Shown here in pieces: positions 27,352 to 55,708 of a stretch of DNA of 64,000 nucleotides (positions are counted from its first letter, which is position 1; each line of letters starts with the position of its first letter). The DNA lies in NCBI GenBank assembly GCA_903813345.2, contig CAIIXF020000004.1, positions 12,732,196-12,796,195 of the forward strand, read 5' to 3'. The notes under the pieces were generated by a model. It saw nothing but the letters and a program-made list of their open reading frames with translations, made no database searches and was not told the origin of the DNA. The translations under genes and the position numbers were made by a program. This DNA comes from Owenia fusiformis. Its lineage: Eukaryota; Annelida; Polychaeta; Sabellida; Oweniidae.

Positions 27352-27420
27352 ATCCGTATTTACGAATCAGGCTCAGCAGCAACTTCCTACATGTACTTCA
27401 GTCTCTTGATGTCAGTCTAA

Positions 27421-28975: not shown

Positions 28976-30905
28976 TAACTTTGTGTACAAGAGGCAGATG
29001 AAAAATACAAGAGGCGGCATTCAAAATAACCAATTTTACTGTCCCGACAATGCAAATTCTTGTTATTTTAGAGTCCATGGACTGAAAGAAAGATGTCCAA
29101 GATTGTCGAATTCATTTCCACGTATGATGGGGCAAGTCATGGGCTCCACAAAAGAACACCTGGAACTGTGGAATGACTAGGGCAACTTATATAGAATGTC
29201 ATTTACCTTTTATAAGATAACTTACCCTTACACAGGTTGCATTTCACAAATCCAAATGCACCTGTTGAATTGAGCACTTTTGATATAAATCAAAATCTAG
29301 AATTGTCATTATTAAAATGAGAGTGATGTATTGATAGATGATTCACTTGTGATTATGTGTATATCAGATTCATTTTAGTTTTTTTACCACTTCAGAGGGT
29401 ACAGGGTGTTCAAAAAGTAACAGGATTGGTGCTGGTATTTTGTTAAATATACACCAATTTTCTTCAAATTTTACATAATGTACCTTCATGTTTTGTTACT
29501 AAAATTGCCAAATTACATAATTTTTGTCGAAACTGATTTAGAAATCGGCCGATGACTACTCATCGGCCGGCGCCCGGCGCATATGTGGCCTAGGCATTAG
29601 AGAGAGACCGAGGTGGGGGATATCCCCCTCCCCTCTACACCAAACTTGTTCTCACTACGTTTTCGAAAATTGCCTGAAAGGCCTCCTCACACATTATTAA
29701 AGAAAACATATCTACACATATTGCGCATTTAACCATTTGATAACATGTTGTGGATCTTATCTTAATTTGTTAATGTGAATTCGCACCTCCATTTGCATGG
29801 AAGACTTGTATGTGTTGCTACTTGCATGTAGCTACAAGTATTTAATTTCAATAGATGATAAACTTCTCAATATAAGAAATTACCCTCATAAGACATTGTT
29901 GCAAGGTGTGTTGCAATGAATGTGACATCCAACATTCTCAGGTCCGCATTATGTATTCTCGAAGAAAGCCATCATGATAAAACACGATATCTCATTTCTT
30001 CTCAGCCCTGAGATGATTCAGGTGAAACAGAAAGATGCTATGAGTATCAGAATGGAAGAAAGCATATATTTGCATTGATGGTGTATAGTTATTTTATATA
30101 GTGTTTTTAGTTGTACGTGGAAACCTATTCTAACCAGGAAGGATATTGCAACTTTTTTCAAGATCCTAAAGTTGCAATTTTCGTTAGTGTTTCATTGTAA
30201 AGACGCACCTGTGAAAGTGTGTCGCTGGTACAAAGGCGTAGTTCTAAATACATTTAAGATTTTTAAACTTGTATGTGAACGTGTAGAATTATGGACCTGA
30301 TGGTTTTTTCTCCCTTTTGTACTGTTAATACTTGGCCGGTTGAGTATATAAAGGTATACATGTATACAAGTGGGGGTTCAAACCTCCCCCATCCACACAT
30401 ACACTTTTTATCATGCTTAAGTAACTTCGCATTGTAATTACAAGGGTGTTATAAACGAGACACCAGGATGATAAGGTAGGGGTAAACTATAGGGCCAAAA
30501 TCTTGAGAAAGAGTCGAAGGCATGCGAGGCAAATCCTGGAAACTCGGGTTCGGAAAAGCGGGGTTCACTGTTTGGTTCCGTCGACACCTGTGCGAAACTA
30601 CATTCATAATTTATACCGACAGTCGCTTTGATAATGTTTCTTTATCTCGTCTGCGACTCGATAAAGAAGAATTATGAAAGCTCATCAAGAATGGACGATC
30701 TTGCACAGGCACTCATATAAGAACCTCTATATCTTTTTAACACCAATATAAAGATTGAACAACGGACAAACTATGTTAAAAATAAAATGTTATATCTAAT
30801 GTGCCAATTCATTGATTTAGGATTTCGAAAATATTTTCAATATAAGTGACCTCTAAGTGATAAGTGAATTATCGCTTTAAAGAATAAGTGTGACATCTTA
30901 AAGTT
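28976..30905. other. Non-repetitive 1.9-kb segment splitting the minisatellite
   Basis: It begins with an open frame that runs out of the array (to the TAG at about 29178) with no recognisable product. 29401 onward starts CAGGGTGTTCAAAAAGTAAC, a mariner-type terminus without a visible partner. Around 29553-29600 is a GC-rich CATCGGCCGGCGCCCGG motif shared with 61750-61830. I saw no exon. Confidence 0.55.
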
Positions 30906-33900
30906 AGTTTTAAATTTTGTGATTATCATCAATCCCAAATACACAATTGTGTCATTTTGTGGTTATTACCAGTCTCAAATCCACAAATGTTCTATGTTGT
31001 GGTTATTATCAGCCTGAAATACACAATTGTGCCATGTTGTGGTTATTACTAGTCTCACATACACAAATGTGTCATGTTGTGGAAATACACAAATGTGCCA
31101 TGTTGTGGTTATTACTAGTGTCAAATACACAAGTGTGCTATGCTGTGGTTATTACCAGTCTCAAATACACAATTGTGCCACTTTGTGGTTATTACCAGTC
31201 TCAAATACACAGTGGTACCATGTTGTTGTTATAAAAGTCTCAAATACACAAATGTGGTATGTTGTTGTTGTTATTACCAGTCTCAAAATACCTAATTGTG
31301 CGATGTTGTGGTTCTTACCAGTTTTTAATACACAAATGTGCCATGTTAAATTGTGGTTATTACCAGTCTCAAATACACAAATGTGCCATGTTATGGTTAT
31401 TTCCAGTCTAAAATACATGTGCCATGTTGTGGTTATTACCAGTCTCAAATACACAGATGTGCCATGTTATGGTTATTACCAGTCTCAAACACAAATGTGC
31501 CATGTTATGGTTGTTAACAGTCTCAAATATACAAATATGCCATGTTGTGGTTATTACCAGTCTAAAATACACAAATGCGCCATGTTGTGGTTATTACCAG
31601 TCTCAAATACACAGATGTGCCATGTTGTGGTTATTACCAGTCTTAAATACACAAATAAGCTAGGTTGTGGTTATAACCAGTCTTAAATACACAAATGTGC
31701 CATGTTGTGGTTATTACAAGTCTCAAACACACAAATGTGCCATGTTATGGTTATTACCCAGTCTCAAATACACAAATGTACCATGTTGTTGTTATAAAAA
31801 GTCTCAAATCCACAAATGTGCTATGTTGTGGTTATTACTAGTGTCAAATACACAAGTGTGCTATGCTGTGGTTATTACCAGTCTCAAATACACAATTGTG
31901 CCACTTTGTGGTTATTACCAGTCTCAAATACACAGTGGTACCATGTTGTTGTTATAAAAGTCTCAAATACACAAATGTGGTATGTTGTTGTTGTTATTAC
32001 CAGTCTCAAAATACCTAATTGTGCGATGTTGTGGTTCTTACCAGTTTTTAATACACAAATGTGCCATGTTAAATTGTGGTTATTACCCTGTTACCAGTCT
32101 CAAATACACAAATGTGCCATGTTATGGTTATTTCCAGTCTAAAATACATGTGCCATGTTGTGGTTATTACCAGTCTCAAATACACAGATGTGCCATGTTA
32201 TGGTTATTACCAGTCTCAAACACAAATGTGCCATGTTATGGTTGTTAACAGTCTCAAATATACAAATATGCCATGTTGTGGTTATTACCAGTCTAAAATA
32301 CACAAATGCGCCATGTTGTGGTTATTACCAGTCTCAAATACACAGATGTGCCATGTTGTGGTTATTACCAGTCTTAAATACACAAATAAGCTAGGTTGTG
32401 GTTATAACCAGTCTTAAATACACAAATGTGCCATGTTGTGGTTATTACAAGTCTCAAACACACAAATGTGCAATGTTATGGTTATTACCCAGTCTCAAAT
32501 ACACAAATGTACCATGTTGTTGTTATAAAAAGTCTCAAATCCACAAATGTGCTATGTTGTGGTTATAACCAGTCTTTAATACACAAATGTACCATGTTGT
32601 GGTCATTACCAGTCTCAAATACACAAATGTACCATGTTGTTGTAATAAAAAGTCTCAAATCCACAAATGTGCTATGTTGTGGTTATAACCAGTCTTAAAT
32701 ACACAAATGTACCATGTTGTGGTTATTACCAGTCTCAAATACACAAATGTGCCATGTTGAGATTATAACCTGTCTCACATCAACAAATGTGCCATGTTGT
32801 GGTCATTACCAGTCTCAAATACACAAATGTACCATGTTGTTGTAATAAAAAGTCTCAAATCCACAAATGTGCTATGTTGTGGTTATAACCAGTCTTAAAT
32901 ACACAAATGTACCATGTTGTGGTTATTACCAGTCTCAAATACACAAATGTGCCATGTTGAGATTATAACCTGTCTCACATCAACAAATGTGCCATGTTGT
33001 GGTTATTACCAGTCTCAAATACACAAATGTGGTATGTTGTGGTTATTACCAGTCTCAAATACACAATTGTACCAGTCTAAAATACATGTGCCATGTTATG
33101 GTTATTTCCAGTCTAAAATACATGTGCCATGTTATGGTTATTACCAGACTCACATACACAAATGTGCTATTTTGTGGTTATTACCAGTCTCAAATACACA
33201 ATTGTGCCACTTTGTGGTTATTACCAGTCTCAAATCTACAAATGTGCCATTTTGTGGATATTACCAGTCTCACATACACAAATGTGCCATTTTGTGGTTA
33301 TTACCAGTCTCAAATACACAAGTGTGCTATGTTGTGGTTATAACCAGTCTCACATACACAAATGTGCCATGTTGTGGTTATTACCAGTCTCAAATACACA
33401 AATGTGCCATGTTGTGGTTATAAACAGTCTCAAATACATAAATGTGCTATGTTGAGATTATAACCAGTCTCACATACACAAATGTACCATTTTGTGGTTA
33501 TTACCAGTCTCAAATACACAAATGTGCTATGTTATGGTTATAACCAGTCTCACATACTCGAATGTGCCATGTTGTGGCTATTACCATTCTCAAATCTACA
33601 AGTGTGCTATGTTATGGTTATAACCAGTCTCACATACTCGAATGTGCCATGTTGTGGCTATTACCAGTCTTAAATACACAAATGTACCACATTGTTGTTA
33701 TTTCTAGTCTCAAATGCATGAATGTGCCATGTTGTGGTTATTACCAGTCTCAAATACACAACTGTGCCATGTTGTGGTAATTACCAGCCTCAAATACACA
33801 ATTGTGCCATGTTGTGGTTATTATCAGTCTTAAATACACAAATGTGCCATGTTGTTGTTATAACCAGTCTCACATACACAAATGTGCCACGTTGTGGTTA

Positions 33901-34125
33901 TTTCTAGTCTCAAAAACACAAATGTACCATGTTGTTGTTATTACTAGTCTCAAATACACAAGTGTGCCATGTTGTGGTTATTACCAGTCTCAAATACACA
34001 AATGTGCCATGTTGTGGTTATTACCAGTCTCAAATACACAAATGTGCCATGTTGTGGTTATTACCAGTCTCAAATACACAAATACGCCATGTTGTGATTA
34101 TGGTCTCAAATATACAATAGGCTAT
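30906..34125. repeat. Minisatellite array 2 (40-bp units) with higher-order repeats
   Basis: It has the same unit as array 1, about 80 copies, more diverged and with occasional deleted units. It begins with GATTATCATCAATC, as array 1 does at about 28681, so it was copied from inside array 1. A block of about 723 bp is repeated almost exactly (TGCTATGCTGTGG recurs at 31137 and 31860). Around 32570-32990 a block of about 200 bp is repeated. The last units before 34090 are the most uniform. Confidence 0.95.
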
Positions 34126-39435: not shown

Positions 39436-42400
39436 CTATAATAATGACTGCTCCACTAAAATTTCAGTGTATCCATCAGGTGGTGAGTGGTAGAAATTGT
39501 CGAAAAACACATCTAATATTGCACCTTCGTCCACTGAAAATATACACAATATTTTTTAAATACAATATATGGAGAGAATGACTCATGTCTTTTTCATGTT
39601 TTTTCACTCTATGATACACTTGAGTTGTCTAGTTACCCTTAGTCCTGAAGAGCATAGTTAAAATTTATTCTCTCTGAATAGGACAAACAACCATTGGTAA
39701 ACCGTTTGACCCAATAATTATATTTTGGCCTTAAAGCATTACATTCGTGTTAAAAAGTTTGAAGCCACACTGGCAATGTTTGCTGTTCTGTAACTTACAT
39801 GCTTTCAATAGCGTTTCAGCTTGATTGATTCTGCACCCATTTGCAAGTAATATTATACCTTTTGAGAAATTGATGAGAATAGCCTCAATCATGCAATAGT
39901 TGACTCAACATAAGAGCGAATAACTAGTTTTTGAAAGCCAGGGTTTCATTTTTATTTACAAAATCGTGTTTCGTGCCAAATTGTTTCAACCACACACGTC
40001 ATGTCACGTGACGTTAAATTTCTGCTCTGAAAATGAAATCAGTTTTGCCACAAAAACAGACGTGCTATCCCCGATATCATGATAAAATGAACATTTGGAA
40101 TGGTTGATGGTTCACCATTGTAAAGTTTGGCCTTGATACGGTAAGATAGCATAAATATATCTAAATCAAGTAAAATGGTTTGAGTACAACTTTAAGGTAA
40201 GATCAGTAAGGTAAGGTAAGAATTATCTATAGTTTAAACAGAATATATGAAGCTTAGATAGATTTAAAGAAACAACAAGGCATAAACATGCAAAATATGC
40301 CACCTGCCATTTGTCACAGACACCGAACACCAACAAACACCAACCCCCAAATGCTGACTACCAAACACCATCCACAAAAAGGAAAACTTTCATTATGATT
40401 CTGATTATGTGTTATTCTCAAAGCATTTCATTATACTCAAACTGAAAATATTTTCATGAGGATTCCGATTCTTCTCAATGTAATTCATCAATAATTTAAA
40501 GTATCTTTCGTTCTGTTTAAGAGTGAATTCATCGCAAATATGACTAAAAAATAATAATCAGGCCTAATATTTCTAAAAGTGATACAGCATATTAAAAAAT
40601 GTTATATATTACCATAAACTATTGGATATACAGTTCCTTTAACCCCAGTGATAGGTGTATTCAGGGGTTTGCCATTCATGTAGAAGTTCATCTCTATATG
40701 ATTAAAAGCGACACCCTGAAAAGAAAAGAAAAAAATATAAGAATTTATAATGCCATTTTTGAGTTCCTTCTCTAAATGATTAAAAGTGACACCCTGAAAA
40801 GAAAATAACGGTAAGAAAATGTATAGAATTGAAAATCACTTTTTTCAATATGACATTGTTTTGTTGATCATTGTTAATCGGTCAGTCAATGTTATGAACA
40901 TAATGGAAAATTTAAGTCTGAGAAAAACACATTTTCACCTTCATGATACTTCTTTCTCTGAAAGAAACGGAAATTGCACTAACTGCAACTCTTTTCAGTA
41001 TTTTCAATCAATAAAGGGATCATGGCCAGTTCGGCCACAATCTTAGTAAAATGTTGAATTTTTAAATGTACAGGTATTATCTCAGAGATCAGTTCAAAAA
41101 CTTTTGCAACTTACTATTATGTCACCTTCCGAGGGGTGTTCTGGAAGTTTTGCTTTTTGTTCGTTATTGTGTGCTATTGAACCATTGTGTCTAAGTACCC
41201 AGCTTTCTGAGTTGGAACCAAGTGGTATTTCATTGACATTCACTTTTCTTGTCCCTAATCCTAGACCCCAGATTCCTACAAAGAAAAGAATGAATGCAGC
41301 CTTTAAAATCTATAGTAGAGGGTATCTGAAAAATGTTGCCAACTGATGCCATATTTCTCTAAAGGTGAACCAAGTGGTATTTCGTTTATGTTCACTTTCC
41401 TTGTTACTAATCCTAAATACAAGAAACCGTGCAAATCCAGTCTATCAAATATCTGTCTCCACTCCATGTGCTGTATTTTTGATTTTGATTTCATTTTTAG
41501 AACAGATGATCTTCCAAAGGATTTTAAACATTGTGTCAATGGGGATTAAGACCAACCTATTTTTTTAGAAAATAACACAGTGAATTATATATGCCATAGA
41601 ATAGAAGAAATTGTTGGTCTTTAATGGCTGAAAATGCACATGTTATGTCCCCAAATCTCATTAAAAACGAGACTTCAACAAGATTTCAATTTTGTTTTAG
41701 CAAATCCTCAATTGAAAAACATCACAGTATACATTTTGTGATGATAGCATCATATATGATCGTATAAGTGAAAATACAAAAAATCATACTGAATTTGACT
41801 GCTTGACATTTAGCAAAACTGATGCAAATGTTGTCCTTTGTACGAGCATGAATCATACCTGTGGACTGTATTTTAACTTCAAAGTAGGCCTTGTCTTGCC
41901 TTTGTACGAGCATGAATCATACCTGTAGACTGTATTTTGACTTCGAAGTAGGCCTTGTCTTGCCTTTGCACGAGCATGAATCATACCTGTGGACTGTATT
42001 TTAACTTCAAAGTAGGCCTTGTCTTGCCTTTGTACGAGCATGAATCATACCTGTAGACTGTATTTTGACTTCAGATTAGGCCTTGTCTTGCCTTTGTACG
42101 AGCATGAATCATACCTGTGGACTGTATTTTAACTTCAAAGTAGGCCTTGTCTTGCCTTTGTACGAGCATGAATCATACCTGTAGACTGTATTTTGACTTC
42201 AAATTAGGCCTTGTCTTGCCTTTGTAAGAGCATGAATCATACCTGTGGACTGTATTTTAACTTCAAAGTAGGCCTTGTCTTGCCTTTGTACAAGCATGAA
42301 TCATACCTGTGGACTGTATTTTAACTTCAAAGTAGGCCTTGTCTTGCCTTTGTACGAGCATGAATCATACCTGTGGACTGTATTTTGACTTCAAATTAGG

Positions 42401-44938
42401 CCTTGTCTTGCCTTTGTAAGAGCATGAATCATACCTGTGGACTGTATTTTAACTTCAAAGTAGGCCTTGTCTTGCCTTTGTACGAGCATGAATCATACCT
42501 GTGGACTGTATTTTAACTTCAAAGTAGGCCTTGTCTTGCCTTTGTACGAGCATGAATCATACCTGTAGACTGTATTTTGACTTCGAAGTAGGCCTTGTCT
42601 TGCCTTTGCACGAGCATGAATCATACCTGTGGACTGTATTTTAACTTCAAAGTAGGCCTTGTCTTGCCTTTGTACGAGCATGAATCATACCTGTAGACTG
42701 TATTTTGACTTCAGATTAGGCCTTGTCTTGCCTTTGTACGAGCATGAATCATACCTGTGGACTGTATTTTAACTTCAAAGTAGGCCTTGTCTTGCCTTTG
42801 TACGAGCATGAATCATACCTGTAGACTGTATTTACACTTCAAAGTAGGCCTTGTCTTGCCTTTGTACGAGCATGAATCATACCTGTAGACTGTATTTACA
42901 CTTCAAAGTAGGCCTTGTCTTGCCTTTGTACGAGCATGAATCATACCTGTAGACTGTATTTTAACTTCAAAGTAGGCCTTGTCTTGCACAATAGGGGCAT
43001 TAGCTAGAGTTGCTCCTGTTCCACATATCCTTCTTCCATTCTTTACTATGACAGCGTCCTGACCTTAAAATTAAAGATCATTATGAGAAATATTATTAAA
43101 TAATTCTCTTTATAATATTCCATAATAACATGTTTTCCCAGGGAAAATAACAGGGAATAAAATTGATATTCAAAGAATCCCCTATCAGCCTTGATGGTTG
43201 TGATGGAATATGAATTTTTTCCTTGAGAAAATATGATATAGGCATCGGAAAATATCATATTGACACTCGGGCTATCGCCCTCGGTCAATATGATATTTTC
43301 CTTGGCCAATATCATATTTTCCTTCGGAATAAAATTCATATTCCATCCCTTCCATTAAATAACCTCTATATATGTATTATACAATGCAATGTTTGTATCA
43401 ATGATCCAATATGTACAATGCAGTGATCTCCACAGGATATTTTCTCAAGTGGGTGCAAAATTCTCATTTTCACAATTCAGACCAAAATTGGTCATAATAT
43501 GCCCATATATTTCATAATTTTTCTCATTTTCAATTGGGTGCAAATGGATTTTCAGGTGGGTGCAAGCCTATTTCCAAATCTCAGGTGGGTGCTGCACCCA
43601 CTTGCTTTATGCTGGGGAGATCACTGAAATGTATATGAAATTAGAAATATATATAAATTACATAATTTAACATACAATAAGCTATAATACTGGAGAGCAC
43701 TTTTCATGACGTAAAGATTTACCATTTACATGTGCATGCTTTAGCAGCCTGATTTCATTTGAATGTGGCAGATGGTGAAGTTTGACCACAGGTGAGGTAC
43801 AATCTGCCTTTTTTTCAAAAAATGTTCATGGTTTCACTTAAATTACATATTTTCCACCTGCTGGGCTACTAATAATTACAGCTGATTACATATTATGGAG
43901 TTATATCTTAAAATGAGATTCAGCTCCCATTAAGTACCTACACTGATTCGTGGACACTAAAAATGAGGGAAAACAATTTGTTTTAACTTCATATAATTAA
44001 ATAGCAGAATAATTCCAAAGCTAGAAGTCCAACCAACAAACCTTTAAACATACCATTATAAATTCAATTACCCTGCGTGCAGAGCCTAGTTAAACTACAC
44101 TCTGCCTAGTAGAGACCATATTACAGTTTAGTAGTCCCACCCCCACATCGGGTACCAGTGACATTTTGGGTAGTAAATCACTTCTGACCTACGCTCTGAC
44201 CTTTCTTCAACCAAATCAGCAAGCTTGAAGATACACGCCAAATGCGTTCTAATTAAATATGTGCATGTCATTGGTCAATTCCGGGCTCAACGATGACGTC
44301 AGAAGGAATGACCATATATAGAACGTCGGTCAAATTTGGCCGACGAACACTAGATCTCACTAGATCTTGATCCATGCGAGAAAAATGGCTAATTCACCCT
44401 CAGGCCTTGATTTGAAATTAGAGCAAAACAACTAGATGTCGAAGTAACCCCATATGTCGAAGTTAACCAAAATTGGTGTCAACGTTATACCCATTCACCC
44501 TAGCTTGGAGATCTAAAGTCTAATCTATAAATCTATCGGACAACAATAAAGATTCCAAATTTCTAGTTTTATGGGCTTAGCCTTTGGCAGATTATTGACA
44601 TAGACAAAAGAAAGAACTAGGGGGAGCCTTAATTTGAATAAAAGCCTATTTATATACCCCAAAAACATAATTGTAAAGCCTAAATTAATGTAACTTGATG
44701 GTAACGAGCATTGATTTTTGACCAACTGAGAAAAATAATTTACAAACAGACCGGAAGTAAACTAAAAATAGCTAATTCAAGAGAACAAACCCGTTCATAG
44801 TTTATCTGACGACTCACCCATATGCTCTGTGTCTAGTTGCACTGTTGGAAGCTCTTTGAGGGGAACATGTCCAGAATTGAAGCCAGGGCCGTTTAATAAA
44901 GAGCTCCAGCGACCGAAACAGCAAAAACAAGCCGCCAT
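39436..44938 (-). CDS. SPRYD7: SPRY domain-containing protein 7 (5 exons, 199 aa)
   Basis: Minus-strand exons: 44938-44818, 43063-42947, 41275-41115, 40715-40613, 39533-39436, all GT-AG with continuous phase. The 199-residue product is collinear with vertebrate SPRYD7 (about 196 aa) from end to end. It has an N-terminal Cys-rich start (MAACFCCF), HVPLKELPTVQLDTEHMG (24-41), IVKNGRRICGTG (45-56), KAYFEVKIQSTGIWGLG (68-84), RKVNVNEIPLGS, AHNNEQKAKLPEHPSEGDII (up to 133), FYMNGKPLNTPITGVKGTVY and FYHSPPDGYTEILVEQ. It is a single SPRY beta-sandwich, a protein-interaction fold. Its cellular role is not established, and no signal peptide or membrane segment is seen. An hAT-type MITE sits 60 bp upstream of the ATG and a TGACGTCA motif 23 bp upstream. 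Introns carry partial copies of exons 2, 3 and 4. Confidence 0.97.
40735..40793 (-). pseudogene. Partial duplicate of SPRYD7 exon 4 start with its acceptor
   Basis: CTTTTCAG followed by GGTGTCACTTTTAATCATTT (minus strand) copies the acceptor and first codons of exon 4 (GGTGTCGCTTTTAATCATAT). It lies about 80 bp upstream of the genuine exon and reads GVTFNHLEKELKNG, after which similarity ends. No donor equivalent to exon 4's is present, so it looks like a decoy acceptor. Confidence 0.85.
41346..41440 (-). pseudogene. Partial duplicate of SPRYD7 exon 3 start
   Basis: Upstream of exon 3 the minus strand reads TTTAG then GATTAGTAACAAGGAAAGTG, giving LVTRKVNINEIPLGSPLEK. The real exon has LGTRKVNVNEIPLGSNSES. 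The copy keeps the phase needed to join exon 2. If spliced it would diverge after the conserved part and stop within about 20 codons. It is most likely a pseudo-exon, but a truncated isoform is conceivable. Confidence 0.85.
41828..42946. repeat. 64-bp tandem array made from SPRYD7 exon 2 end plus splice donor (~18 units)
   Basis: Each unit on the minus strand is CAAGACAAGGCCTACTTTGA, AGTTAAAATACAGTCCACAG, then GTATGATTCATGCTCGTACA and AAGG. About 40 bases come from the 3' end of exon 2 (QDKAYFEVKIQSTG), followed by the 5' splice site and the first 24 bases of the intron. The genuine exon 2 is the outermost copy at 42947, so intron 2 opens with some 18 copies of its own donor. A ten-unit block is repeated (41848-42110 against 42488-42750, offset 640). 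GTGGACTG and GTAGACTG variants alternate. Confidence 0.95.
43195..43350. mobile_element. Hairpin MITE in SPRYD7 intron 1
   Basis: GATGGAATATGAATTTTTTC is mirrored by AAATTCATATTCCATCCC. Inside, CGGAAAATATCATATTGAC faces GTCAATATGATATTTTCC around the loop CGGGCTATCGCCCTCG. It is a foldback element. Confidence 0.75.
43351..44817. other. SPRYD7 intron 1 remainder
   Basis: 43425-43625 has a TGGGTGCAAATT/GGTGGGTGC-rich repeat with GATCTCC at one end and GGAGATCACTG at the other, a probable short MITE (CAGTGATCTCC...GGAGATCACTG). About 44071-44105 (CCCTGCGTGCAGAG, CTAGTTAAACTACACTCTG) is inverted relative to 62750-62800 and 61600-61660, a dispersed repeat. TGACGTCA occurs at 44294. No additional exon was seen. 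Confidence 0.5.
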
Positions 44939-44960
44939 TTTATGTTTTGGTATATCCCAA

Positions 44961-44968
44961 TGACGTCA
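44961..44968. promoter_or_regulatory. CRE-like palindrome upstream of SPRYD7
   Basis: TGACGTCA, the full CREB/ATF consensus palindrome, lies 23 bases upstream of the SPRYD7 ATG, between the gene and the hAT-type MITE. Whether it is in the promoter or the 5' UTR is unknown, since the transcription start was not located. Confidence 0.4.
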
Positions 44969-44997
44969 CTAATTGGTATGGGAATTTCCTGATTATT

Positions 44998-45659
44998 GGG
45001 TGTTACTAAATACCACCTAGGTGTCCCCTTGGGCACCTGGATTTCTAATTCCATTTTAAACCATGTACATATTTTAAATATAGTATTATTTCCTTTGTCA
45101 TATTGACTTGACATTGAATAGGCTTGAAATAATAATTTGTAGTCGAGAATATAGCAAAGAAGATTCAAAAATAAAATGTAAAAAGTTTTATTGTTATAAA
45201 ATGGGCACCTGGAATTTTGCTCATATGTATGGTAGCTATGGTTACTTATTTGTAGTAATAAAACACCATTAATGCTAATGCTAAAGTATGCATTTATATT
45301 TGAAATATATATATTGTTCATACTTGTTGCTAAAATAGTGAATTTGTAGCATTTAAAATGCTAAAAAAATGCTAAAAAAATGCATTTAAAAATTCACTTT
45401 TATAGTGAGCAAATAATGAAATATTATTCTTACAAATTACTTTTTCAACATCGATCAAAATTTTCAAGATAGGCCTAATTAAAAAAAATATCATAAACAA
45501 ACAGAAATATTTACACAAGTTCCGCGAAAATACTTTATTATGTACCATATTAACACCTGGAAAAATGTTATCTTGAAATAAAGTAGTAAAATATGCCAGT
45601 AAGGCATTTCAATGGGGACACCTAGGTGTAGGGCACCTAGGTGGTATTTAGCACAACCC
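44998..45659. mobile_element. 662-bp hAT-type MITE with perfect 8-bp target duplication
   Basis: The termini are inverted: GGGTGTTACTAAATACCACC at the left, and GGTGGTATTTAGCACAACCC at the right, with CTAGGTG continuing the match. TGATTATT flanks both sides exactly (44990-44997, 45660-45667). An 8-bp duplication is characteristic of hAT transposition. There is no transposase; the 142-codon minus frame inside is not conserved with anything I recognise. It lies about 60 bp upstream of the SPRYD7 start codon. Confidence 0.88.
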
Positions 45660-46018
45660 TGATTATTTAAAGGTTGTATATAACTATCAAAGTGTTTTTG
45701 ACACCTTTTCAAAGCCTTAATTCAGCATGTTGCCGTGTATGTATAATATGTTTCATTTCTTATACATTTAGAGTGGATATTCACCTTTCATTCCATATGA
45801 AGAAAATGCAAATTTATAAAATATTGACGGAGTGGGAGCTGTTACAATGACCCCTACTTTTAGCAATTTTCAGAACGTTTCGTCCAGTGTATTTAATGAG
45901 GGGCCCACCTTAAATCAAAAACATTGCCGTTTTTGGGCTTATTACTTGAAAGCATAATACCAGTCAATGGGTGAAAGCAGGGCAAACGCCTGCCTTTTTA
46001 TCTCGAGTTATGGATTTA

Positions 46019-46321
46019 CACTCCCCTCCATAAGTTTAGCAACCTTAGCTCCCCCATTGACCTACGTGTTAAAGCCTCTTTACGTTTGCATTTGTCGATT
46101 TTCAAAAATTCATCCAATTTTTCATCAATTTTCGACTTATTGTAATTGTGGAAAAAATGAGAAAATTTGGAGTTATTGGAAAGAAGTCAAATTACGTTCC
46201 CATCAATAGTATAAGTATTTTCATCGCAGGTTAAGTAAATAAAAATTCAAAGGTAAAGAGGCTTTAACACGAAGTTCAATGGGGGGGGGGGCAGAGGTTG
46301 CCAAACTTATGGAGGGGAGTG
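46019..46321. mobile_element. 303-bp Tc1/mariner-type MITE (short form)
   Basis: CACTCCCCTCCATAAGTTTA, then GCAACCTT, is answered by AAGGTTGCC-type sequence and AACTTATGGAGGGGAGTG, with TA on both sides. Its inner sequence matches both ends of the 862-bp element at 46587, so the short element is an internal-deletion derivative. Confidence 0.85.
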
Positions 46322-46586
46322 TATGTGGCCCTACTGGTATATCTGAAGTTCAAAAGCAATGTCTAAGCTAAATTTTGACACTAAACTCAATAGGGGCCAA
46401 ACATCTATAAATAATTTGTCAATTGTGACACTTCCCCCTCTCTCTGACGACAGAAACTGAAATTCACAAAAAATGAAGGCAAAATTAATACGCCACTTGA
46501 CTCGAAATTTTCCTTCAGATAATCCAAATAAACTCTTTTTCGGAAGAAATGGCATGTTAATATAATTGCAAAAAAAAGACAACTTA

Positions 46587-47448
46587 CAGTCCCCTCCATA
46601 AGTTTGGCAACCTTTTCGCCCATTGAACTACGTGTTAAAGCCTCTTTATGTTTGAATTTTTATTTACTTAACCGGCGATGAAATAACTTATGATATTGAT
46701 GGAATCGTAACTTGACTTTATTTTCAATACCTCCAATTTTTCTCAATTTTTTTCCTCAATTACAATAGGTCGAAAATTGATGATAACGTTGATGAATTTG
46801 TGAAAATCGTCATTCCCATGTAATCCAATGGGAAATGGAGGGTGTGGGGCAAATCAGAAATCAAGATATCTTTTCGGTAAAAGATTCAGCAAAAAAAATT
46901 TTATATAGAAAATTGAATTGTCTTACTTTTTTGAACACTAAGTGTTTAGTTTATTTGATGAATATTAAAGTTACAGCGCTTCAAAGTCATTTTTGAAAAT
47001 AATTTTTCGCCTCCTGTGTTATTTCAATGGGAGAGGTTTTTTGAAAAACAATTTTGACTTTAAAAGCCCTATAACTTTGTTGAACCTGAAGAACATATCA
47101 ATTTTTTGTTAAATAAAGTTAGCAAATTCAATTGCCTGCCTAACTCGTATTTTTCGCAAGGACTCGGATGTATGGATATTCTGTCATATGACTTGCGGCA
47201 AACCTACCATTTCTCATTGGTTAACATGGGAATGTCGATTTTCAAAAATTCATCAAATTTATCATCAATTTTCGACCTATTGTAATTGAGGAAAATTTGG
47301 AGGTATTGGAATTAAAGTCAAATTACGTTTTCATCAATAGTATAAGTATTTTCATCTCAGGTTAAGTAAACAAAAATTCAAAGGTGAAGAGGCTTTAACA
47401 CGTTGTTCAATGAGGGGAAAAAGGTTGCCAAACTTATGGAGGGGAGCG
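46587..47448. mobile_element. 862-bp Tc1/mariner-type MITE (long form)
   Basis: CAGTCCCCTCCATAAGTTTG, then GCAACC, with inverted GGTTGCCAAACTTATGGAGG and GGAGCG at the right; TA flanks both sides. AAAGCCTCTTTATGTTTG and GTTAAGTAAACAAAAATTC mark inner arms. Near the middle, CATTCCCATGTAATCCAATG and CATTGGTTAACATGGGAATG also pair. No transposase is visible. Confidence 0.82.
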
Positions 47449-48299
47449 TACCTACTATAATACTAGCTAATACTGACTCGTCTTTTTTCTATTCGGTGGA
47501 AGTGACGTACTAGGGCATTTTGGCCTATACGTTGGATGATATGGAGACGTTCATTGTGACATTTGTTTGGGGGATTCCTGACAACGGTCAAACACTTTTA
47601 CTTTCATTATTAGAGCACTTTGACATTCAACTGGAAATCGAAAGTGCATTTACTAGATTTAGTTCATGAAAATGAATCAAATTGATGATATCCTCAAAAA
47701 GTAGTTTTTAACGTTTTCTAAGGCCTAGATAGTTATATACATCCTTTAAAGGATCATGCTCAACGCCTCTTCGCCAAATACTACAATTTAAAACATTCTA
47801 ATTGTGGAAATGGTTTACAAATGTGTTTTTGATATTGAAATTTTATCTAAAAGTAAACTTGTTTGGAATCAAAATCGGTGACAGGGATTTGGCCTTGTTT
47901 GATAACAATGATGGCTGAATGACCCGAAATTAAAAGGTCCATTTTAGAGGGGGGGGGGTGATTCATGCGCCTTCAGTACAGGAGGGTACAAATTATACGA
48001 TTAAATGAGGTTTAGCTCGGCCGCCAAAATGTATTGTGGACTCTTGAAGAAAGACCTTGACTAGTTAGGCCTACTTACAAACTGAATTATCATGAGTTTG
48101 ATAACATACGGCAAGGATAGTCAAAATCTAGGTCACGGTAGTAAAGGTGTATGTCATACATATACAAGTGTAATCAAATAGCAAGCTAGCCTACTTTAAT
48201 GTTGTAGCTGCTCATGTAGCAGGCGTTCGTTATTTAAGGCCACTTTAGTTCAAGCTGCATTACATCACAACAGTCGGGATCGTGCGTTCGTGTAACAAC
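47449..48299. other. Upstream region of the hydrolase gene
   Basis: Intergenic sequence before the hydrolase start codon. No repeat or exon was recognised. It should hold the hydrolase promoter. Confidence 0.4.
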
Positions 48300-48307
48300 T
48301 GACGTCA
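48300..48307. promoter_or_regulatory. CRE-like palindrome just before the hydrolase ATG
   Basis: TGACGTCA sits three bases upstream of the chosen ATG at 48310. It is therefore probably in the 5' UTR or at a start-proximal promoter. A functional role is not shown. Confidence 0.3.
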
Positions 48308-48309
48308 TA

Positions 48310-51300
48310 ATGCCTCTACCCTCGGACCTTTCTCACCTCCACCCAGAGTCCCAAGCTCGTCTGAAACTCTTCGAAGAGTCGGGAGGAAAATATTATTTCG
48401 ATATGGACACCATTGAAGGAGCCAGACAGTCAAGCTGGGAATCCATCCAGGCGACCACTTTGCCTCAACCATTTGATGGCTCAACCACGGAACACTTTGT
48501 GTCCCTGGAAGAGGTACCAAGTATGTAGTTTGCATTAGCCTATTTTAGCATAGCATGGAGCATAAAACAATGTAAAGCACTTAACTAATCATTGCATGAG
48601 GCGTCGTTGCATTGTAAAGCATCATGAAAGAAGCATAGCACCGGGGCATTGGAACGAATTATACGTAAGACAAAACTGTATGCAGCATATTGGTACTATA
48701 TATTTTTCAAAATTCCAATGCCATTTAATTTGTCTGTTGTTCTTCACGGCCAACGTACGCGTATCCGTCCATCAGCTGTTATTGGTTTGGATAATGTTTG
48801 AAAATATTAAGTTTATCAGTAGTACTTTTATCAAAGCTCATCAATAATGGACAATCCTGCAATGGATGTCATACAAAAACATAATAGATGGCATTATCAT
48901 GTAGTAACCATTATTCTATTTGTTTGTTAAAGGGACATATTCAACTTAATAGAATAAACATGAGCACGACAGCGAGAAAGAAAGAAATTGGGACTTTTTA
49001 AAAAAAACTATCAATTTTAAATAGATTAGAGTGGAGATTCTATAAGAGTTCCCTGAAATTCTTTGTGTATTAGTCCTTCTCAAAAATTAACATACATGTA
49101 TAACCATATATATTTTACTGTATAGATGGCGTCCCAGTGTTTGTTTATAAACCAAACAAACTACCCGTAGATCCACAAATATTGGTGTACTTCCATGGTG
49201 GTGGTTTTACTGTGGGATGTAGAGAGGGGTATGAAACAATGCTCAAAATAATTGCTCAGTGAGTTTATTGTTTTAATTTACTTTCAAGTACAGGGTGACC
49301 CCAATAATGCAACCCATGATTGAATATTGCATTGTCAAATTACACGTGGCATAAAATATTACAAGAACCAGAAGTAATACCCCAGAAGACGGGACGGTCA
49401 TCACTTTGATGTTTCAAGTTATTCAAAAAAGCGTCACATTTTTGGGGTCACCATGTACCATACTTTACCTTCCATCGATTGATCTATTCATATTTTACTT
49501 TATATTTTGTCATTTGAAACATTTTGTTGCTTCTAATAAATGCATTTGACTTGTTTTTCGGTGACTTTTAAATCGAACTCTATCTTTTTAATGATCGTTT
49601 GCACGTGAAACTTTGCTATGGAGTAAGCCCACAATCGTTGAACCATGCTGAAATGTTTTACTTCTATTTCATTATTTTTATTTCTATAAAAAGATAAGCA
49701 TACATAATTAGAACGTACATTCATGATTTGATGTGCCACACCATTGTTAAAAGCTGGAATACGTTGTTTCTGCATGCATTTTTGTGTACTTTTTTTTTAG
49801 AGAAGCTGGTTGCATCATTGTAAACGTTGAGTACCGCATGGGACCAGAGCATAAAACGCCTGCTTGGCTGGACGACTCCGTGGCAGCAACAAAGTGGGCT
49901 ATGTCCAATAAAGATAACATAGGTACACATATATATGTAACATACTACGCTAGGTCTATTTGAGGCATCGGCCTCGTCCGAAAATAACAAGATATCTTTA
50001 ACACCCGGGCTTTAACATCTTTATTTGAAATACGATTTTACATGGATGGGGAATACATTTTTAATGTTTTTGAGAATCAATACCTACAGAAATTGTATGT
50101 AACAATAACATAGACTTTAGGTATGGGATTGATCAGGTGAGAGTTCATGATAAATGTCTGAAAAAGAGGATGCTCGATTTATGTCTTAAAAAAATATCAC
50201 ATTTGAAACCCCTCTCTCCAGTGTGGATCTTAAAATATCCATTAAGGTCAGAGGCAGTAATAAATGTCTTTAAACAAACATCACATTTGAAATTTCCCTC
50301 TCCAGTGTGGATCTTAGAATGGTTCACAAGAGAAGATTTTTGGTTAAATCTCTTCAAACAAATGTCACATTTGAAATCCTTCTCTCAAGTATGAATTTTA
50401 CAATGTTGGTGTAGTTGAGAGGCTGTGATAAATGTCTTCAAACAATCCTTACATTTGAAATTCCTCTCTCTACTATGGATCTAGGAATGTGTCGAAATGA
50501 GATTTTGCCCAAGTCGGTCTCTTTTACTTATTTTGATTTCTAATAATTCAAGATCAGATAAGTAAAAAATACCGACTTGGGCAAGGCTTAACCAAATTAT
50601 GTATACAAGTTTGCTATTTATTTGTATTTCTTGGAATATGTAAAGTACACACACACACACAGTATATTCATATATGCAATTTGTAGCACGAAATAAATAG
50701 TTCTCAAATATATATATATATAAAAAAAGAGATTTTCGGTAAAAATTATTTTAACAAATATCACATTTAAAATCCATCTCTCCAGTATGGATCTTGGAAT
50801 GTGACGAAAGGTGATATCTTCGATTAAATGTCTTCAAACAAATGTCACATTTAAATTTCCTCTCTCCAGTGTGAATTTTACAATGTTGGTTCAGCTGAGA
50901 GGTTGTGATAAATGTCTTCAAACAAACCCATTATTTGACATTCTTCTCTCCAGAATAGAGAGGCTGAATCAACATTGTAAAAAAGTGCCTTAAGCTAGGC
51001 ACTTAAGAAACTGAGCAAACATAAACCTCAAAACGATTTTTTCTTTTTGCTGGCTGCCTTTTTGTTCTCTACTTTAAAATTATAGAAAATATTGCATAGT
51101 GACAAAAATGTGCTACCTCTAAAAAATTGGTGTGGATATCCGAAAAGTGACGATATCTGCAAGCTTCTTTAGAGGTAGCACATTTTTTGTCTATATGTAC
51201 GAGTAACATTGTAATTGAAAGCGGACATAAAATGCCAAAAGGCGATTTGCCGCATGATTGTGTATTATGCCATGAAAAATATATCAATGAAATAGGAAAC

Positions 51301-54300
51301 CTATTGTTTAAAAAAAGCACATATCCGATAAATGTTTTCAATTTTCTAAAATTTCAAAAAGAAAGTTTATAACTTTCAAATTGCAAATATAATTTATATC
51401 GATTGGCCATCTCGATCATCAATACCAAATGAAAGCTGAAACTGTGCAATAAAGCAGCAGTTTCAAATTCTTTGCTTTGGAGCAAGGATGAATGGTTAGT
51501 GCATCGTTAAAAATGAAGAATACAACTACATATAGACAGAATTTCGCTTTTATCAGGTATCCTCTACAAATGGATGACTATAACTGAGTCCCAAAGATGG
51601 CTTAGTTTTTGAAATATCACAAATTCAAACCCAAACAAGATCTTTTATATCCGCACTTTGCGCACATGGTATCCACTCCACTTTTTTTCGTATAGCGCAG
51701 TCTGTAAAGGGTGATATATGATTAGCGGAAAACTCAATTACACGTTTAAAATGAAATAACTAGGAGAAAAAATGTTCGAAGTAAAGGAAACACCATTATA
51801 GCATGTAAAGTTGATATTTAGAATATAATGGATTAGAAAAAATGAAATTATGTTTCATGTATTTATTATAGGGGGAACTGGTAAGAGTCAAGTTGGAGTA
51901 TCAGGAGACAGCGCTGGGGGTTGTATAGCAGGTACTGTCGCATACCATCTCCCGGGAATTGACTATCAGGTACTGTCGCATACTATTTTCCGGGGATAAT
52001 TGGCTATCAGGTAGTTATATCTGTCGCATACTATCTCCCGGGGATCGACTATCAGGTACATGTAATTATAACTGTCGCATACTATTTCCCGGGGATAATT
52101 GGCTATCAGGTAATTACATCTGTTGCATACCAACTCCCGGGGATTGACTATCAGGTAATTATAACTAACGCATACCATCTCCCGGGATTGACTATACGGT
52201 AATTATAACTGTTACATACCATCTCCCGGGGATTGTCTATCAGGTAATTATAACTGTTGCATACCATCTCCCGGGGATTGACTACAAAGTAATTATATTC
52301 TGTTGCATACCATCTCCCGGGGATTGACTATCAGGTAATTATAACTGTTGCATACCATCTCCCGGGGATTGACTACAAAGTAATTATATTCTGTTGCATA
52401 TCATCTCCCGGGGATTGACTATCAGGTAATTATAACTGTTGCATACCATCTCCCGGGGATCGACTATCAGGTGCATGTAATTATATCTGTCGCATACTAT
52501 CTCCCGGGGATTGACTATCAGGTACATGTAATTATAACTGTCGCATACTATTTCCCGGGGATAATTGGCTATCAGGTAATTATATCTGTTGCATAGCATC
52601 TCCCGGGAATTGACTATCAAGTAATTATATTTTTTGCATACCATCTACTAGGGATTGACTATCAAGTAATTATATCTGTCGCATACTATCTCCCGGGGAT
52701 CGACTATCAGGTACATGTAATTATAAATGTCACATACTATTTCCCGGGAATAATTGGCTATCAGGGGGTCATTAACAGAACTTTCGCAAAGTTACGAATT
52801 CGCAAGTCAATTGTTAATTTTACGAATTTGGTAAATGTGCATTAACAGAACTTTCGTAAAGTTACGAACGATTCGCAAAGTTACGAAAAAATGACGTCAC
52901 ATGTGCTTTCGTTCGTAACTTTAATAGCACCTCAGACCCTTTCATAACTTTGCGAATGGCATATTTCTCATCCAATTCTTATGTAAGGCATACAGGTTGG
53001 CTAAAAGAAATTGTTCTTTATATGCATGCTAAGTTTCAAGCTAAAATATCCACCTATTCTTACATGATAAGCAAATATGTTCCTGAGCTGGGAATCTTTG
53101 AAATCGCGGAGACAGGTTTAATCACAGCGCGCAATGATATCAAATGACATCATATTTTTATTTGTGCTAAATAATGATATAAGATGACGTCACAATTTGA
53201 AATTCGTTTACGAACGATCAAACTTATGAATGACTTACGAAAGTGTTCTGTTAATGGCCGATTCGTAACTTTATGAATTCGTAAGTCATTCGTAACTTTT
53301 TAAATATTTACGAATTTCATAAAGTTACGAATTACGAATTCGTAACTTTGCGAAAGTTCTGTTAATGACCCCCAGGTTATTATAACTGTCGCATATCATC
53401 TACCGGGATTTACTCTAACTGCTGCATATCATCTCCCGGGGATTGTCTATCAGGTAATTATATATATAACTGTTACATGCCATCTCCTGGGGATTTACTA
53501 TCAGGTAATTATCATTTGTTGCATACCATCTCCCGACGATCGATTTTCATTAACAGTTTCGTCCAGGGATATTAACTATCAGGTAACTGTTGGATGAACC
53601 AACTCTTGAGTAATTAAAGGGTTAAATAGAACATTGGCGTTGTTTAGTTTTATTTCACCCTGCACCTAGGCCTGAACTGGACACGTTCATGTATTTTTCG
53701 TTACAGATCCTGGTGTACCCACATCTGGATCATAGGTGCCTTCTACCTTCATATACGGAATATGCTGACGATCATCTCCTCACTATGAAACTTATCACAT
53801 GGTAATTAGAAGTAATTACAGTACTTGCATCAGTGGGCATTTTAAGTGTTAATATCTATTTTTGCTATATTGACTGAGAGTTGAAATAAAGAACTATTTT
53901 GTTATTTCGATCAGATTTGCAGAGGTTTAGGAGTAAGATGATGGATGATGTGAATAATGAAATTAAACAATCTTTTGAGTTCACTTATAAGAAATTAAGT
54001 ACGAGATGTGCTCAACAATTATAGGACAATATAAAGCGTCTGTTACTTATTGAGCACTCCTCGTATTAACGTAATGCGCTTTTAATATAGGTTCCATTCC
54101 AATTATATATCAGAAGAGCAGAAGACCGATCCAAAGTACAACGTCCTCCAGCAGACAGAGTTTAAGCATGTTCCCAGATGTTTGTTCATAGTCGCTGAAT
54201 GTGATCCTTTAAGGGATGACAGTATTGGTACGTATTCGCTGAATGTGACCCTTTAAGAGTTGACAGTATAGTATGTATGAGCTGAATGTGACCCTTTAAG

Positions 54301-55708
54301 GGATGACTGTATGGTATGTATGAGCTATGTGTCCCTTTAAGAGATGACAGTATAGTATGTATGAGCTGAATGTGACCCTTTAAGGGACGACAGGATTGGT
54401 AGTTGGTACGTATGAGCTGAATGTGATCTATTAAGGGATGACAGTATTGGTACGTATTAGCTGAATGTGACCCTTTAAGATATGACAGTATAGGATGTAT
54501 GAGCTGAATGTGACCCTTTAAGGGATCATAGTATAGACGTATGAGCTGAATGTGATCCTTTAAGATATGACAGTATAGTATGTATGAGCTGAATGTGACC
54601 CTTTAAGGGATCATAGTATAGACGTATGAACTGAATGTGACCCGTTAGGGAATGACAGTACTTTTACGTATGAGCTGAATGTGCTTCTAGGATGGCAGTA
54701 CAAATAGGGGCGTGTGCGCTGAATGTGAGCCTTTAAGGGATGACAGTTTTGGTACGTAATACGCATGAGGTGAATGTAACAATTTAAGAAATGACAGTAC
54801 TGCTAGGCCTACCTGTGAACTGAATTACTTCCCTATGTTCGAAGGGTGAGCGAATCATTTTTACTTTTCAAAGAATTTCATGTGAGTACAAAGACCTGCT
54901 AATCTGTTCTTGATTTCTAGAAAACATAATTATGCTTGGTGATTAAAACTTAAGACGTAGTTATTCATATTATGTGTTGTGTTGGAGTTCGCATTATTCT
55001 TCAGTTTTTAATATTTCTTCTGTGCTTCGTCTTTATAGAATACGCAAAGAAACTTGACGAAGCTGGAGTGCCTAATGAAACACTCAACCTGAAAGGAATA
55101 CTCCATGGTTTCATACAAGCTAATGGTACGTACATACTGAACGTTTCAAACTTAGAGACACTAGTCTGTACATTATGTTTTTGTTCAAAAGTCGTAAATT
55201 CCGCTTTGATATATATTTATGGGGTTCTTGTTTCTTGATACAATGTTAGTGCTCTACAATGCCATCGGGGGAAAGGTGAAAATGTTGTTAGCCTAAATTG
55301 GACTAAAAATGCAATATTTAATAATGTGGGGCATGTCTAAATATCCTGTAAAATAATATAATGTCACGCAGGCCGGTAGCCAGGATTTATCAAGGGGGGG
55401 TCACTTTTTAAAAAATTTCGGGGGTTCACTTTAGACAACTTTGGCCAAAATCAATTGACAAGTGCTCAGAATAGTGGAAAACAGCATTATTTTGAAATAA
55501 TATTTGGCCCCCCAGGCTAGGGCTTGATGTGTGTAGAATTTATTTCAAGTGTGCTGTTTAATCGAGATTTCCGTCTGTTAACCTATGGAGGGGTGTAACA
55601 CTGAACGAAACAAAATGTAGCCTTTGTTATCTTGCAGGTGCCTATCCGGAAAATAGCAAGATTGCCTACGACAGAATAATTGAATACCTAAAGAAAATCA
55701 AACAGTAA
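48310..55708 (+). CDS. HSL/AADAC-type alpha/beta hydrolase (esterase/lipase, 8 exons, 317 aa)
   Basis: Exons: 48310-48520, 49126-49258, 49801-49922, 51872-51969, 53707-53801, 54091-54227, 55039-55125, 55638-55708, all GT-AG and in phase. It is a serine esterase of the alpha/beta hydrolase-3 (hormone-sensitive lipase) family, which includes arylacetamide deacetylase. Oxyanion motif HGGG at 94-97. YRMGPEH at 126-132 corresponds to the family's YRLAPEH. Nucleophile elbow GDSAGG with Ser169. Acid Asp258 in AECDPLRDD. His288 in GILHGF. All three catalytic residues are present, so it should be active on short acyl esters or lipids. It begins MPLPSDLSHLHPESQARLK with no signal peptide or membrane anchor, unlike the roughly 400-aa ER-anchored AADAC proteins. 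In length it resembles soluble, bacterial-type members. Introns 4 and 6 open with tandem copies of the preceding exon end. Confidence 0.93.
49291..49455. mobile_element. 165-bp Tc1/mariner-type MITE in hydrolase intron 2
   Basis: CAGGGTGACCCCAATAATG at the left and CATTTTTGGGGTCACCATG at the right are inverted copies, with TA on both sides (49289-49290, 49456-49457). It is too short to code for anything. Confidence 0.88.
50130..50990 (-). pseudogene. Degenerate C2H2 zinc-finger fragment in hydrolase intron 3
   Basis: Minus-strand reading gives repeated finger pieces: RFNQKSSLVNHSKIHTGEGN, FKCDVCLKTFITASDLNGYF and KIHTGERGFKCDIF. Further fingers lie in other frames up to 50990, with HTGE-type linkers. 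The 28-codon periodicity is clear, but zinc ligands are lost in several fingers (GYFKIHTGE, DIFLRHK) and stops and frameshifts break it. It is antisense to the hydrolase and is best read as an inserted dead zinc-finger gene segment. Confidence 0.8.
50505..50584. mobile_element. 80-bp hairpin inserted in the zinc-finger pseudogene
   Basis: TTGCCCAAGTCGGT, then TCTTTTACTTAT, is mirrored by ATAAGTAAAAAATACCGACT, then TGGGCAA. The hairpin interrupts the finger repeats. The neighbouring 50590-50740 contains CA and TA microsatellites and no finger similarity. Confidence 0.7.
51934..53585 (+). repeat. ~45-bp tandem array made from hydrolase exon 4 end plus splice donor
   Basis: Each unit is ACTGTCGCATACCATCTCCC, then GGGGATTGACTATCAG, then GTAATTATA. 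The first 36 bases equal the last 12 codons of exon 4 (TVAYHLPGIDYQ); the rest is the 5' splice site and first intron bases. The true exon end (51969) is the first copy. Roughly 25-30 units follow through intron 4, many still reading CAG-GTAATT. Two variant classes (GGGGATTGACT and GGGGATAATTGGCT) alternate. The array is interrupted by the 608-bp element at 52765. Confidence 0.95.
52765..53372. mobile_element. 608-bp MITE inserted in the exon-derived array
   Basis: GGGGTCATTAACAGAACTTT, then CGCAAAGTTACGAATTCG, is answered at the right by CGAATTCGTAACTTTGCG and AAAGTTCTGTTAATGACCCC. CAG flanks both sides (52762-52764, 53373-53375), a 3-bp target duplication that interrupts one array unit. CGTAACTTT-type motifs repeat inside. 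The 65-codon frame within it has no known relative. Confidence 0.85.
54186..54830 (+). repeat. ~44-bp tandem array made from hydrolase exon 6 end plus splice donor
   Basis: Units read GCTGAATGTGACCCTTTAAG, GGATGACAGTATTG, GTACGTATGA. The first 34 or so bases repeat the end of exon 6 (AECDPLRDDSI, including the catalytic Asp258 codon), followed by the donor. The true exon ends at 54227 and about 13 decayed copies fill the start of intron 6. Many copies have lost the donor (AGTATAGTATGT); a few keep GG-TACG or TTGGTACG. Confidence 0.93.
55367..55530. mobile_element. Diverged relative of the 6588 MITE in hydrolase intron 7
   Basis: GCAGGCCGGTAGCCAGGATT and GGGGGGTCACTTTTTAAAAA, then TTTGGCCAAAATCAATTG, correspond to the inverted content of the 6588-6798 element. 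The right end (CCCCAGGCTAGGGCTTG) is eroded and no target duplication could be assigned. Confidence 0.6.

Follow-up and report, generated by a model that had tools for sequence, protein, structure and literature searches.

The closest described counterparts of the structures reported here come from amphioxus. In PMC3087553, minisatellite-like tandem duplications of exon–intron borders are described in the globin genes, at both 5′ and 3′ borders, and the term 'mirages' is given to such structures in Adh3. The same paper states that reverse-transcription PCR (RT-PCR) suggests regular splicing, that the number of repeats in BflGb6 differs between two haplotypes and that Adh3 shows somatic instability. 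PMC3902484 adds lancelet PGBD5 as a gene with similar repeats and refers to mirages in Adh and troponin C. Here, we describe three arrays of this kind in the annelid Owenia fusiformis, within a 64,000-nucleotide stretch of contig CAIIXF020000004.1 (hereafter the window), where they lie in two genes, one SPRYD7-like and the other encoding a hydrolase. Such border arrays are real, they recur elsewhere in the genome and they are already named in another lineage; a preliminary description of the window, which knew of no name for them, is not supported on this point, as PMC3087553 shows. What is new is their occurrence in a protostome, a first estimate of their frequency, a test of the reading frame and, in one array, a useful donor that scores below all of its decoys. 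The mirage reports found concern amphioxus only, and no report of such arrays in a protostome was recognised from titles and the openings of abstracts in the open-licence literature, which is a weak negative. Their presence in a protostome suggests that mirages arise generally as a side effect of minisatellite growth where a genome has many intronic repeats.

In each of the three minisatellites, A1 in the SPRYD7-like gene and A2 and A3 in the hydrolase gene (Table 1), the repeated unit comprises an exon's 3′ end, the adjoining 5′ splice site and some 8–24 intron bases, and the real end of a coding exon forms copy 1 every time. This shared construction, already claimed in the preliminary description, is confirmed by Tandem Repeats Finder (TRF) and by splitting the arrays into their units. 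The unit split gives totals of about 18, 22 and 14 for A1, A2 and A3, respectively, and the upper figure of 30 in the range of about 13–30 copies given earlier is too high. The units of A1, A2 and A3 are mutually unrelated and showed no similarity in a cross-comparison. By TRF, A1 extends over 41835–42987 with a period of 64, 18.0 copies and 95% matches; A2 over 51999–52713 with a period of 45 and 15.3 copies, with flanking rows at 51929–52059 and 53416–53512; and A3 over 54194–54683 with a period of 43 and 11.2 copies. All 18 donors of A1 are identical (ACAG/GTATGAT, the slash marking the border), the intron part opening with GTATGA. The A2 units combine 30–33 exon-like bases with 8–21 intron bases, and GT stands at the donor place in 20 of the 22. 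Several donors of A3 have decayed, as judged from the unit split and the donor scores.

The host genes could be characterized from their translations. The spliced SPRYD7-like protein matches the SPRY profile PF00622 with 58.4 bits; the domain thus comes from a profile match, and the name SPRYD7 is presumptive and follows the preliminary description. The protein from the joined exons of the hydrolase gene matches Abhydrolase_3 in full with 180.2 bits. It also aligns with the solved esterase Est8, colinear through both array-bearing junctions, and therefore the first donor is the sensible one at each of them.

In the frame test, translation ran from the start of the exon up to each donor and was continued in the following exon, using 18 donors of A1, 20 of A2, 11 of A3 and 41 of a further array in a RAB27-like gene (C7:15784861–15786759). 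Among the donors counted in these four arrays, the frame is open from donor 1 only, and every later donor leads to a premature stop inside the first repeat. Thus, the arrays cannot add peptide repeats, and the variable repeated peptide segments envisaged in the preliminary description are ruled out here; the competing donors and the intron-length polymorphism that it also envisaged may still occur. In the RAB27-like gene, where the donors are mostly 45 bp apart and the exon gives 39 of the 45 bp of the unit, the donor GTAAGT itself brings an in-frame TAA after copy 1. Donor strength fails to single out the right site: A1 has identical donors throughout, and among the 20 of A2 the minimum score, 0.8, belongs to the authentic donor, against 4.8–5.2 for nine of the 19 decoys, on a human-type matrix.

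The genome searched comprises 498,259,871 bases in 525 contigs, in which the contigs C1–C12 (31.9–62.2 Mb each) sum to about 477.5 Mb. The frequency of border arrays was estimated in a sample of 127 separate stretches (245,218 bases), whose 203 exon matches merged into 200 exons with 400 ends; eight of the 211 typed exon matches had been dropped for incomplete coverage. The stretches were picked by a short open frame or by several close exons, before any look for repeats. They cover the kinase (47 of 144 matches), Ras (53 stretches from at least 153 matches), mitochondrial carrier (21 stretches from 125 matches), tektin (its loci plus one stretch, from 25 matches) and hydrolase (one stretch) families, and the gene names are our reading of the translations rather than database results. 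Read by eye, the 400 ends hold six firm border arrays in five genes, four at donors and two at acceptors, and there are two borderline cases at acceptors (Table 1), so a first estimate of the frequency is 6 to 8 border arrays per 400 exon ends. The exon of the RAB27-like gene lies outside these ends. At least six further genes of this genome carry border arrays, and the recurrence with unrelated units that had been claimed for two neighbouring genes is borne out by the firm cases and by the RAB27-like array. Unlike the window, where donors only are involved, the genome also holds arrays on the acceptor side. The STE20-like exon (stretch C5:69001–70197) is flanked on both sides, and its intronic copies on the acceptor side are closer to each other than to the real exon. 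Three arrays near exons that contain no exon sequence (C3:16869400, C12:16919100 and C5:74500) were discarded by eye, as was one at C1:60860700, which is positioned after a stop codon. The hydrolase stretch on C10 is too divergent from the hydrolase of the window for a comparison of the same introns.

Table 1. Positions of the border arrays and associated features (numbers without a contig refer to the window).
Feature	Position	Strand	Description
SPRYD7-like exon 2, authentic copy	42947..43063	-	donor GT 42946-42945; open frame GQDAVIVKNGRRICGTG...QSTG
Array A1	41835..42986	-	18 x 64 bp = 40 bp exon end + donor + 24 bp intron
Hydrolase exon 4 (GDSAGG motif)	51872..51969	+	authentic donor GT at 51970; from translation
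Array A2, whole	51940-53590	+	18 units, inserted element, 4 units
Array A2, main block	51940..52763	+	18 units, mostly 38-51 bp; 17 donor-place GTs
MITE-like inverted-repeat transposon in A2 (MITE, miniature inverted-repeat transposable element)	52764..53373	+	610 bp; 45-nt terminal arms, 96% complementary
Array A2, distal block beyond transposon	53391..53590	+	4 units; 3 donor-place GTs
Hydrolase exon 6	54091..54227	+	authentic donor GT at 54228; from translation
Array A3	54194..54812	+	14 units, mostly 41-51 bp = 34 bp exon end + donor + ~9 bp intron
MEK-like kinase	C10:27469548		donor side; border array, firm
STE20-like kinase	C5:69001		donor side, two copies; border array, firm
Mitochondrial carrier	C4:7141700		donor side, ~2.5 copies, ~15 exon-like bases; firm, small
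RAB35-like gene	C12:35841161		donor side, two copies of 20 bp; firm, small
STE20-like kinase, same exon as donor case	C5:69001		acceptor side; border array, firm
CDKL-like kinase	C2:27320000		acceptor side; border array, firm
Two borderline cases	C1:49727326, C11:32573585		acceptor side

These arrays probably reflect near-neutral growth of tandem repeats that is tolerated at the edges of exons, and are mirages in the sense of the amphioxus literature. An ordinary tandem duplication, by slippage or unequal exchange, would by chance span an exon–intron border and then grow. Copy 1 would remain the real exon end, and the other copies with their decoy sites would sit in the intron; since these extra copies would be spliced out with it, the array would be close to neutral. 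Two circumstances would then explain why arrays turn up at borders: the non-coding DNA of this genome is densely populated by tandem arrays, and duplication outward from an exon's outer edge does no harm, whereas duplications within exons are purged.

The internal structure of the arrays records some of their history. The units of A1 are most alike at a lag of 10, with a mean identity of 0.982 and five of eight pairs identical, which is a sign of a 10-unit block duplication and of past turnover. Six of the 40 exon-derived sites of the unit and three of its 24 intron sites are variable; exon and intron parts of A1 thus vary to about the same degree, and the copied exon sequence gives no hint of constraint. 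The MITE-like transposon that splits A2, which the preliminary description did not mention, has 39 other near-complete copies of 96–99% identity in the genome among the 40 of 395 candidates that were scored; A2 therefore predates a fairly recent insertion. In a genome-wide search that skips very common words, A1 matched only itself, and a dispersed repeat family was set aside as its source. The corresponding search with A2 and A3 is dominated by matches of the transposon (40 of 395 candidates scored) and does not bear on the uniqueness of these two arrays.

The frequency of border arrays is compatible with chance. We placed the 60 non-redundant arrays of the sample (period at least 18, score at least 60) at random in the same stretches; at a maximal overlap of 1.3 units, 4.13 ± 1.92 border arrays are expected (4.11 in another run), with P = 0.24 for six or more. 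A rule of 2.0 units gives an expectation of 5.33, with P = 0.44 for six or more and 0.16 for eight or more. An automatic array rule finds five border arrays, namely three of the firm six and the two borderline cases; the other three firm cases were added by eye, and the random placements contain no such additions, which favours enrichment rather than our own reading. Nearby copies were found for three of 294 predicted junction 30-mers (donor 1/108, acceptor 2/186), compared with 1055 of 30639 intron 30-mers and 47 of 6500 exon-interior 30-mers. The power of this comparison is low, since the automatic border finder, which returned 116 donors and 197 acceptors for the 203 exon matches, flagged just two of the stretches identified by eye (C5:69001 and C2:27320000). 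Lastly, the triple CAGGTAAGT with gaps of 12–42 has 106 matches in the genome, and the 100 matches listed fall into nine distinct arrays (up to 15 if each of the remaining six matches is a separate array); for the reversed-motif control, all 52 matches fall into seven arrays.

Several results weigh against near-neutral growth at random positions. First, the weakest donor of A2 is the authentic one, which is awkward for simple neutrality unless exon definition overrides strength. Second, when the borderline cases are included, P for eight or more is 0.053 under the 1.3-unit rule, and a 1.0-unit rule (expectation 3.25) gives P = 0.095 for six or more and 0.012 for eight or more. Third, three of the 15 arrays of the window lie at borders by the unit split, against 0.60 expected, with a post hoc P of 0.016. 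Finally, the triple-donor pattern requires a perfect CAGGTAAGT and so misses A1–A3 and the RAB27-like array, and its nine arrays need not border exons. Enrichment is not shown by these counts, and one of roughly threefold, by our own estimate, is compatible with them.

The preliminary description had envisaged a process seeded at the border itself, in which junctions preferentially start tandem duplication. Candidate causes would be R-loops, U1-bound nascent RNA, or short homology of the donor consensus with exonic CAG-GT-like words. The recurrence of unrelated units across several genes fits such a process, and A2 offers a plausible homology seed, as its donor is spanned by the word CAGGTACTGTCGCATAC, another copy of which lies in the exon, 38 bp upstream. 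The count of eight with borderline cases, against 4.1 expected, also points in this direction, more so under the stricter overlap rule. However, the firm count of six does not differ clearly from 4.1, the predicted junctions are duplicated less often than introns, and arrays of perfect donors are hardly commoner than those of the reversed-motif control. A cause acting at donors only would moreover be insufficient, since acceptors are affected too. Seeding at borders is thus not shown by the random placement, the low-powered junction 30-mers or the control motif, and we regard it as improbable; the comparison of border with random intron frequency proposed in the preliminary description, made here for the sampled part of all introns, leans towards the outcome that it had set against its own proposal. 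A broader conjecture, which we consider doubtful, is that borders are mild hot spots of duplication here and perhaps also in amphioxus, that the genome holds thousands of mirages and that, in some genes, the correct donor has to be chosen purely by position among dozens of equal or stronger decoys.

It is very unlikely that the extra donors are functional decoys. The array would then titrate the U1 small nuclear ribonucleoprotein or tune exon recognition, and the copy number would set how much splicing is productive, since transcripts from downstream donors would undergo nonsense-mediated decay. The decoys are indeed intact and often at least as strong as the real donor (18 of 18 identical in A1; up to 5.2 against 0.8 in A2), and each one counted leads to a premature stop. 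However, the exon copies of A1, which give no hint of constraint, the several decayed donors of A3 and the absence of shared sequence among the three units argue against a function, as does the regular splicing suggested by RT-PCR in amphioxus (PMC3087553). Least probable of all is an assembly artefact, with collapsed or expanded repeats misplaced beside exons: tandem arrays are error-prone in assemblies, and one amphioxus mirage was seemingly mis-assembled in the draft genome (PMC3087553, legend of additional file 4), but A1 has internal variants and a block structure, A2 contains a transposon, the contigs C1–C12 are large and similar arrays occur in six other genes.

Some further repeats and clusters were observed. 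Two large arrays of the window (27413–34101) share one 40-bp unit, which TRF counts about 34 and 75 times, respectively; they lie at least about 1.3 kb from exons that we read as sulfotransferase-like, and neither showed an exon border. A GSK3-like kinase exon, named from its translation, occurs twice in tandem (C10:2256896–2257045 and 2257074–2257205). Both copies are good coding sequence about 47 bp apart and are candidates for mutually exclusive exons; the intervening intron is perhaps too short for both copies to be spliced. Clustered matches of the mir-2 family number four in the genome, three of them above the cut-off (three in a second search). As mir-2 is specific to protostomes, this cluster speaks for a protostome host and against the amphioxus or echinoderm origin that had been weighed in view of the mirage literature and of the tektin match, in which a sea urchin chain of 8snb ranked first with 307 bits against 263.6 for the next. 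COX1 and bindin had no match in the genome, which bears on neither origin.

The arrays provide natural tests of splice-site choice, with 18 identical donors in A1, dozens in the RAB27-like gene and a useful donor in A2 that scores lowest. If the first donor is used accurately, they would show in a natural setting that exon definition prevails over donor strength; otherwise, wasted transcripts would weigh heavily on these genes.

Comparison with known systems places the arrays closest to mirages. The human gene IFI6 (6-16) reportedly contains a minisatellite with multiple splice donors (attributed to Turri et al. 1995), in which the extra donors are said to be used and to make the coding exon longer. 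The present arrays resemble it in that a splice donor goes with each of the repeats at an exon end. Unlike in IFI6, where the extra donors are reportedly used, every extra donor counted here leads to a stop, and in A1, A2, A3 and the RAB27-like gene no later donor keeps the frame open. Intron gain through the tandem doubling of AG/GT proto-splice sites (Rogers, 1989, cited in PMC3087553) likewise involves tandem duplication of a segment with splice signals. Unlike that case, there is no sign here of a new coding exon or of a new intron between two still-coding copies: the copies stay inside the existing intron, the stop falls within the first repeat and the hydrolase protein is colinear with a homologue. 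In contrast, several features of mirages are found. The units span the border and the authentic border stands at one end, both in A1–A3 and in the other genes. The splice dinucleotides are kept in A1 (18 of 18), A2 (20 of 22) and the RAB27-like gene (41 donors), with partial decay in A3. Either border is affected, at donors in the window and at four donors and two acceptors among the firm cases of the sample. The mirages of Adh3 and of the globins BflGb6 and BflGb9 and the similar repeats of PGBD5, as described in PMC3087553 and PMC3902484, likewise consist of border-spanning tandem units, of about 10–160 bp, at either splice site and with AG/GT signals in many copies. The arrays described here differ from them in their protostome host and in the number of donors, with up to 41 counted in one intron.

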